Source: Acidobacteriota bacterium (GTDB taxonomy: Bacteria > Acidobacteriota > Blastocatellia > Pyrinomonadales > Pyrinomonadaceae). From it: a DNA stretch of 64,000 bases. Below the pieces are notes generated by a model. It did no database searches and had not been told where the DNA came from. It worked only from the letters and a program-made list of their open reading frames with translations. Location: assembly GCA_020200135.1 (NCBI GenBank), contig JAIVJI010000007.1, forward strand, positions 64,420 through 128,419. Direction: 5' to 3'. Shown here piece after piece: positions 35,811-43,045 of the stretch (within the stretch, counting starts at the first letter, position 1; each line of letters starts with the position of its first letter). Position numbers and translations under genes: made by a program.

Positions 35811-36287
35811 TTAGTTGCCGATGGGGGTCGTGCCGGTCGTGTCCGCCAGCGGGGTGGAGCTCGACTCGGCCTTGGCGTAGATCACGCCCGCCTCGTCGGA
35901 GATGAAGTTGCGCGAGCCGCTGTTAGCCGTGCACTGCGTGCCGGTCGAGACGTAGCCGCTGCCCCAGTCGCCGTCCTTGGCGTCAAGCTCGAAGAAGTAG
36001 CCGCTCTTGCAGTCGCTGACCGAGTCGGCCGCGGCGACGGCCGAGTCAATGAGGCCACGCGAGGCCAGATCGGTCATGGGGCCGTAATCGCCAAAACCGA
36101 CGGTCGAGGCGTAGGTGCTCTGGGCGGTGCCGACGGTGCGCAGCGCGGAGACGGCGGACGCCTCGTTGGCGGCGCGGCGGGAAGCGAGGAGGTTGGGGAT
36201 GGCGATGGCGGCGATGATGCCGATGATCGCGACGACGATCAGCAGCTCGATGAGCGAGAAGCCCTTCTGGCCTTTGTTCTTGTGCAT
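35811..36287 (-). CDS. pilA: type IV major pilin PilA
   Basis: A short leader MHKNKGQKG precedes FSLIELLIVVAIIGIIAAIA (class IVa, Glu5 present). 158 aa; the C-terminal half has two Cys (SDCKSG, GTQCTAN) that could form the D-loop disulfide. It is the promoter-proximal pilin, with a candidate sigma54 promoter about 115 bp upstream and pilR/pilS beyond, so it is probably the main pilus subunit. Confidence 0.93.
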   Translation of the reverse strand: MHKNKGQKGFSLIELLIVVAIIGIIAAIAIPNLLASRRAANEASAVSALRTVGTAQSTYASTVGFGDYGPMTDLASRGLIDSAVAAADSVSDCKSGYFFELDAKDGDWGSGYVSTGTQCTANSGSRNFISDEAGVIYAKAESSSTPLADTTGTTPIGN

Positions 36288-36361: not shown

Positions 36362-37864
<1,503 letters not shown>

Positions 37865-37881: not shown

Positions 37882-39512
37882 CTAGCTCTGTTTGGCGGGC
37901 AGCTCTATCGTGATGGTCGTCCCGTGTCCCTCGCGGCTGCGGACGTTGATTGTACCACCGTGGTCGCGGATTATCTGGTAGACGATGGAGAGGCCGAGAC
38001 CCGTCCCGCCGGTGGTCGAGGACGAGAAGGGCTCGAACAGCCGCTCGACCTGCGCGGGCGACATGCCGCGCCCGGTGTCGGCGAAGGTGATGCGGACGCT
38101 GCTGCGGCCGCCCCCGCGCGCCATCTCCGCGCGGAGAGTGCCCCCGTCGGGCATCGCCATCAGCGCGTTGCGCGCGAGATTCCAGAAGACCTGCCGGATG
38201 CCCTCGACGTCGGCCAACGCGACCAGCGGCTCCTCGGGCAGCTCCTCCTCGAGCTGGTGCCCGTCGAGCATCTCGGGGCTGTGGCGCAGCAGCGCGAAGG
38301 TCTCGCGCAGGGGCTCGCGCAGGTCGGTCTCGGCGAGCGAGAACTTGCGCGGGCGCGCGTAGGTCAGGAAGTCCGTGATGATGCGGTTGAGCCGGTCGGA
38401 CTCGCTGAGGACGATGTCCATCAACTCCCGCTGCGGCGCGTCGGCCCCCAGCTCCGAGCGCAAAACCTGAATCGAGCCGCGCATCGCCGCCAGTGGGTTG
38501 CGTATCTCGTGCGCGATGCCGGCGGCGACCCGCCCGACCGCCGAGAGCCGCTCCTGCCGCCGCGAAGTCTCCTCCATCGAGCGGATGTCGGTCAGGTCCT
38601 GGAAGGTGATGACGAGCCCCGTCGTCTCGCCGCGCTCGGAGGAGAGCGGCGAGAGGTTGTAGCCGAGCTTGACGAGGAAGCCCTCGGGCGTCAGGCACTC
38701 CGACTCGTAGCGCGGGCTGGCGTGCCCGGCGGCCACCGCCGCGAGCGACTCCTCGATGCGCCCCCGGATGTCGCCGAACAGTATCGACACGTCCTGCCCG
38801 CGCAGGTTCGTGGCCGCGTAGCCCGTCATCTCCTCGGCCGCGCGGTTCACGGTGTAGACGCGCCGCTCCAGGTCGGTCGTAATCACGCCCGAGCGGATGG
38901 ACTCGACGATGCGCTCGTGCAGCGCGCGCAAAGAGGCGAGCGCGTGCGTCGCCTCGCGCATCTGCACCTCGGAGAGCGTCTGCCGCTCGGCGAGCCGCGC
39001 CGCCAGCAGCCCGACGACCAGGAAGGCCACGTCGTTGAGCCCCGTCGCCTGCGCGACCTCGGCGAGCGTGGCCGCCGTCAGACCCCGCCCGATGCCGCCG
39101 AGCCACCCCGCCGTCAGCCCGAGCATCGTCGCCGTGTAGAGGGTGGCGCAGCCCACCGCCATCACCAGCGCCCCGCGCGCACCCAGAAAGATGCTCGCCG
39201 CTGAGATGATCAGGATGTAGAGCGCCGTGTAGCGGCGAACTGCGCCACGGCCTGCGCGCGCAGCGGGATCCGCGTAAGACGCAGCGCCAGCGCGTAGACG
39301 GCCGAGAGCGCCAGCACCACGGCCGCGAAGGGTAGCGCCCCGCCGAGTCTGCGCGACTCCTGCGCGCCCGGCGCGAGCCCGCTCGTCCAGAGCACGCTCA
39401 CGCCGAACAGGAGCCCCGCGACCAGCAGACGCCCCGCGATGAGCCTCCAGACCCAGATGCTTTGCAGCCCCCCGTCGCCGCCGGCGGCCGCTTTTTCTTC
39501 GCGCGCCCTCAT
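37882..39512 (-). pseudogene. pilS: PilS-like sensor kinase, frameshifted with internal gap
   Basis: Two reading frames are needed. From ATG 39512 the first gives the N-terminal membrane part (WRLIAGRLLVAGLLFGVSVL ... LRAQAVAQFA) and stops near 39210. The second resumes near 39233 with YTALYILIISAASIFLGARG and runs through PAS, HisKA (AAGIAHEIRNPLAAMRGS) and HATPase_c (TGGTGLGLSIVYQIIRDHGG) to 37882. PilS homologues have about 20 more residues between the halves, so a short deletion plus frame loss lies near 39233. The cytoplasmic kinase is intact and may be made from an internal start. It precedes pilR. Confidence 0.8.
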
Positions 39513-39694
39513 CGCGCATAAGCCTAGCATAAAAGCCCTCCCGCCTTGAGTTTTTGTCCGTAATTGAGTCTAAAAGGCCGTGGATTGCCATTTTTGTCGT
39601 CTTTTTGAACGGCTATAGGAGGTAAATTTGGGATTAATGCAAAAGAATTTGCTAAATTTAAACTTGGTTTAATAACCTCTTGAAAATAAAGGGG

Positions 39695-39722
39695 TTGACA
39701 CCCTTTGCCACTTCAGTTAATC
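39695..39722 (+). promoter_or_regulatory. sigma70-type promoter candidate
   Basis: A perfect -35 ttgaca (39695-39700) is followed after 16 bp by ttaatc (39717-39722), with an A/T-rich upstream stretch like an UP element. It would drive the secreted repeat protein. Confidence 0.5.
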
Positions 39723-39791
39723 TGCGCCCGGACTAAAAGCTTCTTCCCGGTGGGTCTGGAGCCGACGTCGCCTGTCTTTTGAACTCCTCTG

Positions 39792-39872: not shown

Positions 39873-39900
39873 CTCATTTTCGTCAGTTTTGGAGGTTAAA

Positions 39901-40581
39901 GTGAAAAAAGCGCATCTCCCCCCCGTGACGCCTTTACTGGTGTCATTCTCACTGGCTTTCGGTATTCTCGTCAGCGACCTGAGCAGCTACAAGTTCCTCA
40001 CAACCGCGCACGCTCGGGGCAGTTCCTGTTCGGGCAAAAAGGTTGCAACCAAACACGTCAGTGTGGACGACGGGTACGTCCTGGGCGGCATACACTTCCG
40101 CACGATCAGGGTTAACGGCCACGTCATCCCGCACGGCGTCATCGCGGCCGGCGTCCACATCAACGACACCACCATCGTGGGCGCGAACGGCGTCATCGTC
40201 AGCGACGGCAGCCCGACCACGAACGGCGTCATCGTGAGCGACGGCTCCCCCTGCGCGAACGGCGTCATCGTCAGCGACGGCAGCCCGAACGTCGTCGGTG
40301 TCATCGTCAGCGACGGCAGCCCGACCACGAACGGCGTCATCGTGAGCGACGGCAGTCCCAAGCCGGCCGGCGTCATCGTCAGCGACGGCGTCGCGGTCAA
40401 GGGCGTTATCGTGAGCGACGGCGTCATGGCCCACGGCGGCACGCTGACGGGCGACAACATCAGTGTCACCGACGGCGTCATCACCGGCGAGAACCTGCGG
40501 CTGACCGGCACCACCATCAGGGGCGGCACGGTCAACATCAACGGCTCCATCACGTCGGTGCAGATTTCGCCGGCAGGCTGA
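39901..40581 (+). CDS. secreted 12-residue-repeat (beta-solenoid-like) protein
   Basis: GTG 39901 with GGAGG 5 nt upstream is the start; the track's TTG lies inside the ribosome site. A signal-like N-terminus (LLVSFSLAFGILVSD) leads to six tandem 12-residue units NGVIVSDGSPxx (residues 96-167), followed by looser copies (GVIVSDGVMAHGGTLTGDN ... TTIRGGTVNINGS). The Gly-Val-Ile-Val turns predict a right-handed beta-solenoid, similar in style to pentapeptide or adhesin repeats. No homologous family recognised. A surface or extracellular role is likely, and pilus genes lie just upstream. Confidence 0.7.
   Translation: MKKAHLPPVTPLLVSFSLAFGILVSDLSSYKFLTTAHARGSSCSGKKVATKHVSVDDGYVLGGIHFRTIRVNGHVIPHGVIAAGVHINDTTIVGANGVIVSDGSPTTNGVIVSDGSPCANGVIVSDGSPNVVGVIVSDGSPTTNGVIVSDGSPKPAGVIVSDGVAVKGVIVSDGVMAHGGTLTGDNISVTDGVITGENLRLTGTTIRGGTVNINGSITSVQISPAG
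40186..40401 (+). repeat. 36-bp tandem repeat, 6 units
   Basis: In-frame 36-bp units opening with (a/g)(a/c/t)cggcgtcatcgt(c/g)agcga encode NGVIVSDGSPTT-like repeats. The first five are near-identical at DNA level, with most changes at third codon positions and in the last two codons, so expansion is recent or homogenised. Confidence 0.9.
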
Positions 40582-40807: not shown

Positions 40808-42507
40808 ATGGACAGCAAACACTGGCAAGAGTATTACGTCCGCTTCGTCATCGCGCTCGGCGTGGTGGCGATGGCGCTGTGCCTGGCCGGGATGTCGTTC
40901 GCGCAGCTCGACACGAAGTTCCTGCTGCTGGCCGCGGTGACCGTCTTCCTGAGCGCGCGCGTCGAGATTCAAATCCCGCATTCGAGCGGTCACATCACCA
41001 TCTCCGACACCTTCATCTTCCTCACGATACTGCTCTACGGCGGCGGGCCGGCGACGCTCCTGGCGGCGGCCGAGGGCGCCTACTCCTCCTACCGCTTTGG
41101 CGACAAGGCGAAGACGGTCGCCTTCAACGGCGCGCAGATGATGATCTCGACCTACGTCACCGCGAGCGTGCTGGGTCGCATCTTCGGGCCGCCCGAGGCG
41201 CTGCCGACGACCGACAACCTGGGCCGTTTCCTCTCGGCCATCTGCGTGATGTCGGTCGTGCAGTACATCACCAACTCCGGGCTCGCCTCGGTCTACATGG
41301 CCTTCAAGCGGGGTCTCGGCGTCGGGCACACCTGGAGCCGTTACTACCTCTGGTCTTCGATCACGCACCTGGCGGGCGCGTCGGCGGCGGGGCTCATCTC
41401 GCGCGTCGTCGCACGCTTCGGCTTTTCTTACGTCCTGCTCACCGCGCCCATCGTCGCCATCGTCTACCTGACCTACCGCACCTACCTGAAGAGCGTCGAG
41501 GCCTCGGCGGCGCAGGCCGAGCAGGCCGAGCGCGAGCGGATGCGCGAGCACTACTCGCAGATGGAGAAGCTCTCGGCGCTGGGCGAGCTGGCGTCGGGCG
41601 TGGCTCACAACTTCAACAACACGCTGACCGGCATCCTCGCCCGCGCGCAGCTCATGCTCGACGCCGCGGACATGAAGGACGTCCGGCGCGGCCTGCGCAT
41701 CATCATCCAGACGGCCGAGGACGGGGCGCCGGCGAGCTGCGCGAGGTCCTCGTCAACATGGTCTTCAACGCGGTGGACGCGATGCCCGAGGGCGGCACGC
41801 TCACGCTCTCGACGCAGGAGGCGGGCGACGAGGTCGTGCTCACGGTCGCCGACACGGGGACGGGGATGGCCGAGGAGGTCCGCTCGCGCATCTTCGACCC
41901 GTTCTTCACGACGAAGGGCAAGGCGGGGATGGGGCTCGGGCTCTCGGTCTCTTACGGCATCATCCGCCGCCACGAGGGGCGCGTCGAGGTCGATTCCGAG
42001 GTCGGGCGCGGCACGACGTTCCGCATGAAGTTCCCCGTCATCGGCGAGTCCGACACGCAGCGCATACACGAGACGGGGCCGCTGCCGGCCGCGCGCGCCG
42101 ACGGCTCCTTGCGCATCCTCGTCGTGGACGACGAAGACTACGTCCGCGAGCTTCTGGCCGACATCCTCGAGCGCGAGGGCTGCGAGGTCGTGCTCGCGGG
42201 CGAGGGGCGCGAGGCGCTGAGCCTGTTCGACGGCAGCGGGTTCGACGCCGTCTTCACCGACGTGGGGCTGCCCGGGATGAGCGGCTGGGAGCTGTCGCGC
42301 GCCGTGCGCGAGCGCGACCGCGCCGTCGCGCTCGCCGTCATCACCGGCTGGGGCGACACCGTCACGGCCGAGGAGCAGTCGGCCGCGCAGGCCGACTGGA
42401 TCGTCCCCAAGCCCTTCACGATCGAGCGCATCGCCGGCCTCGTCGACGAAATCTCGCAGCGCAAGGCCGCCGGCGTAAAGCCCGCCACGACCTCGGCCGC
42501 GCGCTGA
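40808..42507 (+). pseudogene. hybrid sensor kinase, frame broken near 41730
   Basis: The first frame from ATG 40808 encodes an eight-helix-like membrane sensor (FLLLAAVTVFLSARVEI ... SYVLLTAPIVAIVYLTY) and HisKA with ELASGVAHNFNNTLTGILA. At about 41730 the frame moves to the other ORF, which continues GELREVLVNMVFNAVDAMPEGG (HATPase N box), ADTGTGMAEEV and GMGLGLSVSYGI, then a receiver domain (RILVVDDEDYVREL; Asp in VFTDVGLPGMSG). About 50-60 residues between EDGA and the ATPase are missing. As written it yields two proteins, neither a complete kinase. Confidence 0.75.
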
Positions 42508-42616: not shown

Positions 42617-43045
42617 ATGGCAGACAACGTGCAGCCCGACGCGGGCGAGCAGGGCGAAGAGTCCACTTCGGGACTCTTACTCTCGGCTGAACCATTGCGG
42701 GGCTCGGCCACATACAGGCTGGGCGGGGACGACTCGGACAGCGACAAGGGCGGACTTCTCGGCGACGACTCTTCGGACTCTGACGCGAGCGACGCGCTCG
42801 GCGGCGACGACTCGGGCGCGGGCGACTCGGACGCCAGTGACTCCGGCGACGACGAGTCCGACGCCGACGGCAGCGACGTTGCCGACGCCGACGGCACCGA
42901 CACGGGGCTTGACGCCGACGGGACGGACCCGCTCGGCATCGCGCCCGGCGACGCCGACAGTTCGGACGCGTCGGAGGCTGGCGGCGCGCCGGACGCGGAG
43001 CGCAGGCGCCCCACCGTAGACGGGCAAGACGCGAGCGACTCCTGA
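42617..43045 (+). CDS. Asp/Ser/Gly-rich peptide, putative substrate of the JmjC oxygenase
   Basis: A GGAGG-led ATG opens a 142-aa protein. Residues 1-34 form a leader-like segment (SGLLLSAEPLRGSATYR). The rest is Asp/Ser/Gly/Ala repeats: RLGGDDSDSDKGG, LLGDDSSDSDASDALGGDDS and DADGTDTGLDADGTD, with no Cys or Trp. The stop overlaps the ATG of the JmjC gene (TGATG), so they are translated together. The layout (leader, repetitive modifiable core, adjacent oxygenase) resembles a RiPP precursor. An alternative is a disordered calcium-binding protein. No family recognised. Confidence 0.65.
   Translation: MADNVQPDAGEQGEESTSGLLLSAEPLRGSATYRLGGDDSDSDKGGLLGDDSSDSDASDALGGDDSGAGDSDASDSGDDESDADGSDVADADGTDTGLDADGTDPLGIAPGDADSSDASEAGGAPDAERRRPTVDGQDASDS

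Follow-up and report, generated by a model that had tools for sequence, protein, structure and literature searches.

A GVIVSDG-repeat protein of Pyrinomonadaceae as a possible protease-less partner of a membrane-receptor family

A repeat gene in the window (the whole stretch of 64,000 nucleotides analysed here, from a soil Acidobacteriota genome) can be read, with somewhat better than even confidence, as encoding the extracytoplasmic partner of an Acidobacteriota membrane-receptor family in a form that lacks the protease. The usual partner would be an S8 subtilase with a homogenised hexapeptide tail, encoded directly upstream of the receptor or one GNAT gene away. The receptor would combine a conserved multi-pass membrane domain with an exchangeable output (histidine kinase with receiver, GGDEF-EAL or HD-GYP). 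The version found in the window's genus, and in one further genome, lacks a protease domain and consists of a leader, a repeat array and a cap. As its relatives show, this small protein takes the place of the repeat-tailed protease that normally adjoins the receptor, and so it probably forms the outer half of a poorly known sensing pair. The anatomy of the gene, the conserved gene pair, the swapping of outputs, the homogenised repeats and the conserved promoter are established by the data described below. The features of the region are as follows.

35811-36287, minus strand: type IV pilin, PilA-like, with the N-terminal GFSLIELLIVVAIIGIIAAIAIPN motif
36362-37864, minus strand: PilR-like sigma-54 response regulator
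37882-39591, minus strand: PilS-like histidine kinase, divergent neighbour; found in the genus, not found at the G038 locus
39637-39723, plus strand: AT-rich upstream element and promoter, with a TTTAAACNNNGTTTA dyad, an AT block, a -35-like TTGACA (39695-39700) and a -10-like TAATCT (39718-39723), from the alignment of five upstream regions
39891-39895, plus strand: ribosome-binding site GGAGG, the same in five of five homologues
39901-40014, plus strand: signal-peptide-like leader, residues 1-38, with AHA at its end; GILVxD and A-x-A kept in five of five homologues
40015-40185, plus strand: N-terminal part of the mature protein, residues 39-95, beta-rich, conserved
40186-40422, plus strand: repeat array with seven GVIVSDG cores (Tandem Repeats Finder and unit comparison)
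40423-40578, plus strand: C-terminal cap (GGTLTGDNISVTDGVITGENLRLTGTTI), predicted beta strands, conserved; AlphaFold pLDDT about 83 over mature residues 141-160
40579-40581, plus strand: stop codon of the repeat gene
40808-42507, plus strand: partner hybrid histidine kinase with a multi-pass membrane domain, HisKA, HATPase_c and a receiver (Pfam of the intact homologue; synteny)

The open reading frame (39901-40581, plus strand) has 226 codons and begins with GTG, preceded by the GGAGG site. The leader carries K2 and K3, a hydrophobic stretch and AHA at residues 36-38, and is followed by the beta-rich part, the seven cores and the cap. Since the basic start, the hydrophobic stretch and the A-x-A at residues 36-38 are kept by all five homologues, the protein is probably exported, and the secretion proposed in the initial annotation gains support from sequence. 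Pfam finds no S8 peptidase domain in the protein, which is therefore classed as a variant and not as a repeat-tailed subtilase.

The cores start at residues 97, 109, 121, 133, 145, 157 and 168; five have the full 12-residue GVIVSDGSPxx form and two are shortened. Tandem Repeats Finder reports a period of 36 at 40184-40389 (5.7 copies, 80% matches) and a second period of 108 (1.9 copies, 90%), which points to duplication of a three-unit block. The tandem 36-bp repeat of the initial annotation is thus real, but its six near-identical units become seven cores, and pairwise identity ranges from 23 to 35 of 36 bases, with only units 1 and 4 nearly identical (35/36). The fraction of identical codons in the cores is 0.84, compared with 0.56 expected from local codon usage, and none of 5000 simulations reached this value. 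The claimed identity at the DNA level beyond codon usage therefore holds, even though the term near-identical is true of a single pair of units.

Full-length homologues occur in five Pyrinomonadaceae/Blastocatellia genomes: all four of the genus (the window's own, G106, G107 and G108) and G038, which belongs to another genus. They were identified by whole-genome, profile and kinase searches. A single-protein search of the named-genome collection returned no relatives, no comparable full-length protein was found elsewhere in the class or phylum samples, and a plasmid search gave one weak partial match. The leader, the N-terminal part and the cap align across the five homologues, whereas the repeat does not: it is GVIVSDGSPTTN in the window, GVIVGSD in G108, DGVVVSGESPTNT in G106, GVIVGG in G107 and GVIASGEVVSTS in G038. 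The length of the unit drifts from about 7 to 14 residues and copy number varies between species, the G107 homologue (L040) having a short array. As judged from these alignments, the species-specific repeats are a pattern of turnover and homogenisation within each gene, and it is in this form, between species, that the recent expansion put forward earlier stands. By the initial annotation's own statement, its reading would fall if there were neither a functional secretion signal nor homologues with the same repeat. That is not the outcome: homologues do exist and keep the leader, although the form of the repeat differs from species to species.

Upstream of the gene, all five genomes share a block in which TTTAAAC-N3-GTTTA is followed by an AT stretch and TTGACA, with a plausible -10 spaced 17 bases from the latter. 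The AT-rich leader described earlier is confirmed here, the upstream GC being 0.45 compared with 0.68 for the window, and it is conserved in the homologues. The block is single-copy in its own genome, even allowing 3 mismatches, and among 220 loci the exact or slightly relaxed block is found only upstream of the standalone repeat gene family. The repeat gene thus seems, from this distribution, to have its own conserved promoter. A strict sigma-70 scan does not list it because the -10 is weak, and Rfam gives only sub-threshold chance matches to RNA elements in the upstream region. A regulon that would share the promoter element with S8 loci was ruled out by the uniqueness of the element in the genome.

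An orthologous hybrid histidine kinase lies downstream and codirectional in five of five homologues, across a gap of about 0.2-0.3 kb. The initial annotation had placed the gene beside pilus genes, and pilA, pilR and pilS are indeed present on the minus strand. Pilus genes adjoin the repeat gene in four of the five genomes (adjacent in G107 and G108, with pilS near in G106), but none occurs at the G038 locus. The pilus link is thereby secondary and not the main context, and the downstream histidine kinase is the constant neighbour. The membrane domain of this kinase has no significant Pfam match. In the window, the kinase falls into two frames: compared with L038 and L040, 193 bp are absent at 41724/41725, and the resulting frameshift separates the DHp part from the ATPase part. 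Either the deletion is genuine or the assembly is at fault; G106, G107 and G108 have a full-length kinase. The orthologous kinase of G038 (L041:7409-9169) shows an in-frame gap of about 45 residues in its membrane sensor domain. Given the window deletion and this membrane-domain loss, two of the five genomes may hold a decaying pair, or else the assemblies are wrong.

The hybrid kinase family has many paralogues. A repeat protein is encoded upstream on the same strand at 42 of 45 testable kinase loci, from genera across Pyrinomonadaceae, and is missing at the other three. The automated count was 37/47; inspection added four S8 loci in which the motif varies (GVFASD, GVFAAD, AILASD and GVVYGD) and the standalone protein of G107 (L040), and two loci too near a contig edge were left out, hence 45. 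With about nine such repeat matches in a 5.3-Mb genome, chance adjacency is under 1% by our estimate. The upstream partners are standalone proteins or, at nearly all loci, one or two S8 subtilases with a C-terminal hexapeptide tail, typically in the order S8-repeat, (S8-repeat), GNAT, kinase. This conserved GNAT acetyltransferase gene separates the repeat protease from the kinase (L118:4554-5459, L109:4946-5863, L142:5228-6160).

The S8 tails run, for example, as GVLIGDGVLIGDGVLIGDG, and some have 12-residue units (GVLIGDGARVSN) in the register of GVIVSDGSPTTN. GVIVSD itself is present in one S8 tail (L120). The standalone family aligns with the S8 tails at an hhalign probability of 93%, although the statistics are soft and convergence is possible because low-complexity sequences are aligned. 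The position beside the receptor is a stronger argument than this profile alignment. The tails differ in repeat dialect: among 56 of them, 31 different hexapeptides serve as the commonest unit, and identity at variable positions is 0.75 within tails versus 0.39 between tails. The receptors of L129 and L132 stand as sister rows in the receptor tree, and the change between the two tails extends across the whole array (GVFASD 7/7 versus GVFAAD 6/7). Some repeat proteases have no adjoining receptor. The window's own genome (G000: C2, C12, C33, C43, C57, C91 and C98) contains further repeat-tailed proteases with different dialects, some of them without a receptor beside them. At L130:2730-5390, a repeat-tailed S8 protease has an N-terminal part that matches the ClpB/ClpA AAA region (E 4e-23), an unusual fusion.

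In a tree of the receptors' membrane domain, the three rows for kinases that accompany standalone proteins form one clade (100/100). The nesting of this clade among S8-linked kinases is weakly supported (83/71), so that loss or replacement of the protease domain in the standalone lineage is probable from the tree rather than proven.

Several genomes also carry the membrane domain as a GGDEF-EAL fusion, and others as an HD-GYP fusion; repeat proteases can precede these fusions as well. Since the same domain occurs with kinase, GGDEF-EAL and HD-GYP outputs, the shared element is the membrane domain and not the output. In an independent sample chosen by the membrane domain alone, a codirectional repeat protease is found upstream in about half of the in-class loci; outside the class this is so in one of ten membrane-domain loci (L212). 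That locus, from another lineage of the phylum, encodes an S8 protease with twelve perfect AILWGD units at its end (L212:3776-5704), directly upstream of an HD-GYP receptor. Many GGDEF-EAL members have no upstream repeat protein. The association is strongest in the kinase branch and partial elsewhere.

A beta-solenoid had been predicted for the repeats and is plausible. A hydrophobic period of 6/12 is significant in the repeats (for period 6 in the window protein, none of 1000 shuffles was as strong), and period 6 is significant in four of the five caps (p 0.006 for the window cap); it is not significant in residues 39-95. Of four S8 proteins scored against Pfam Hexapep (cut-off 27), two pass with 41.4 and 54.7 bits, one falls just below with 23.3, and one with GITMAD units has no match. 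The S8-tail profile matches left-handed beta-helix PDB chains (best E 6.5e-6). PF00132 does not match the window protein, for which the best relevant hit is LbH_EIF2B (E 0.43). Structure prediction, which the initial annotation had proposed as a check, is confident for the C-terminal part only: AlphaFold gives a pLDDT of 34.5 with the five homologues and of 51.9 with 30 rows that include S8 tails, leaving the repeats at low confidence and the cap, with its strands, at about 83. Foldseek of this second model finds nothing significant (best E 4). A left-handed solenoid is likely for the S8 tails and possible for the window protein.

The mechanism that we propose would begin with export of the window protein. 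Its repeat domain would fold as a beta-solenoid outside the inner membrane, with two hexapeptides per 12-residue unit. The membrane domain of the receptor would read the state or abundance of the repeat domain through a putative contact and would then control phosphotransfer, the signal presumably passing in that direction. A further-reaching idea is that Acidobacteriota possess an undescribed signalling system in which secreted, gene-specific repeat proteins are dedicated ligands or regulators of a multi-pass receptor with exchangeable outputs, homogenisation acting as a specificity code that separates paralogous or rival systems. This larger scheme is speculative and we regard it as rather unlikely.

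Gene order could also arise if the repeat protein and the proteases were products regulated by the receptor (surface or matrix proteins, adhesins, exoenzymes), co-regulated without contact. This explanation deserves some weight, although we give it well under an even chance. Sensor genes often adjoin the targets that they regulate, the c-di-GMP outputs GGDEF-EAL and HD-GYP fit surface or biofilm functions, and sigma-54 regulators lie beside some pairs. However, the last domain of the hybrid kinase is a receiver, and DNA-binding domains are absent from the c-di-GMP receptors, so that any local control by the receptor is indirect; moreover, it is the membrane sensor domain that stays conserved whatever the output. 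For the sake of this constancy we prefer a partnership outside the inner membrane, whether physical or regulatory, to simple co-regulation.

The adjacency to a kinase in five of five genomes, and the paralogues paired with repeat proteases at 42 of 45 loci, speak against a purely structural role, in which an envelope or matrix protein would assemble itself as a beta-solenoid or functional amyloid, its neighbours would play no part in its mechanism, and its homogenised repeats would come from slippage under weak constraint. Regular repeats rich in Val/Ile and turns, whose number and sequence change freely between species, would suit such a protein, which we nonetheless consider improbable. It is harder still to believe that the gene is a degenerate, non-functional remnant of a repeat-tailed subtilase and its receptor. 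The 193-bp kinase deletion, the short G107 array and the membrane-domain deletion in G038 point that way, but two genera keep the frame open and share the leader, the cap, the ribosome-binding site and the promoter block, and the other three kinases of the genus are full-length.

Under the preferred reading, a protease-less partner of the receptor, the closest known counterparts are the Pyrinomonadaceae S8 subtilases with hexapeptide tails (PF00082 and PF00132). They share a G-[VI]-x-x-x-D-G repeat that is homogenised per gene, and they occupy the same place upstream of the same receptor family. In contrast to these tails, the window protein has no peptidase domain, has units of 12 and not 6 residues, and is not seen by the Hexapep profile. 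Left-handed beta-helix proteins (LpxA, GlmU, gamma-carbonic anhydrases) are alike in having an aliphatic residue every six positions and Gly/Asp turns. However, they are cytoplasmic or mitochondrial enzymes or enzyme-like subunits, whereas the window protein is probably exported, has no acyltransferase feature and has a putative fold.

LapD-LapG is reported to pair a c-di-GMP receptor with a periplasmic protease across the membrane (PMC3032545, PMC3032553), which shows that pairing of this kind exists. The system is alike in joining a membrane receptor with c-di-GMP domains to an extracytoplasmic protease, as at the GGDEF-EAL loci here. The window's version differs in having no protease and a kinase output. 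Pfam scans of the partners and receptors report S8 and kinase domains. LapG is not known as an S8 protease, and LapD carries a periplasmic domain where the receptors here have a multi-pass sensor. LapD-LapG is thus an analogy only, and no membership is claimed. A description of the repeat-protein/receptor pair was not found in the open-access literature.

Acidobacteriota are abundant in soil and their sensing systems are little known. Gene order here assigns a specific candidate partner to a sensor domain that is uncharacterised, has no significant Pfam match and is present across the phylum. The gene-specific dialects also provide a natural example of rapid concerted evolution where the protein concerned may need to match a partner. 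Farther along the window, at 42617-43045, a short Asp/Ser/Gly-rich open reading frame with repeats of 15-30 bp precedes a JmjC-like gene.
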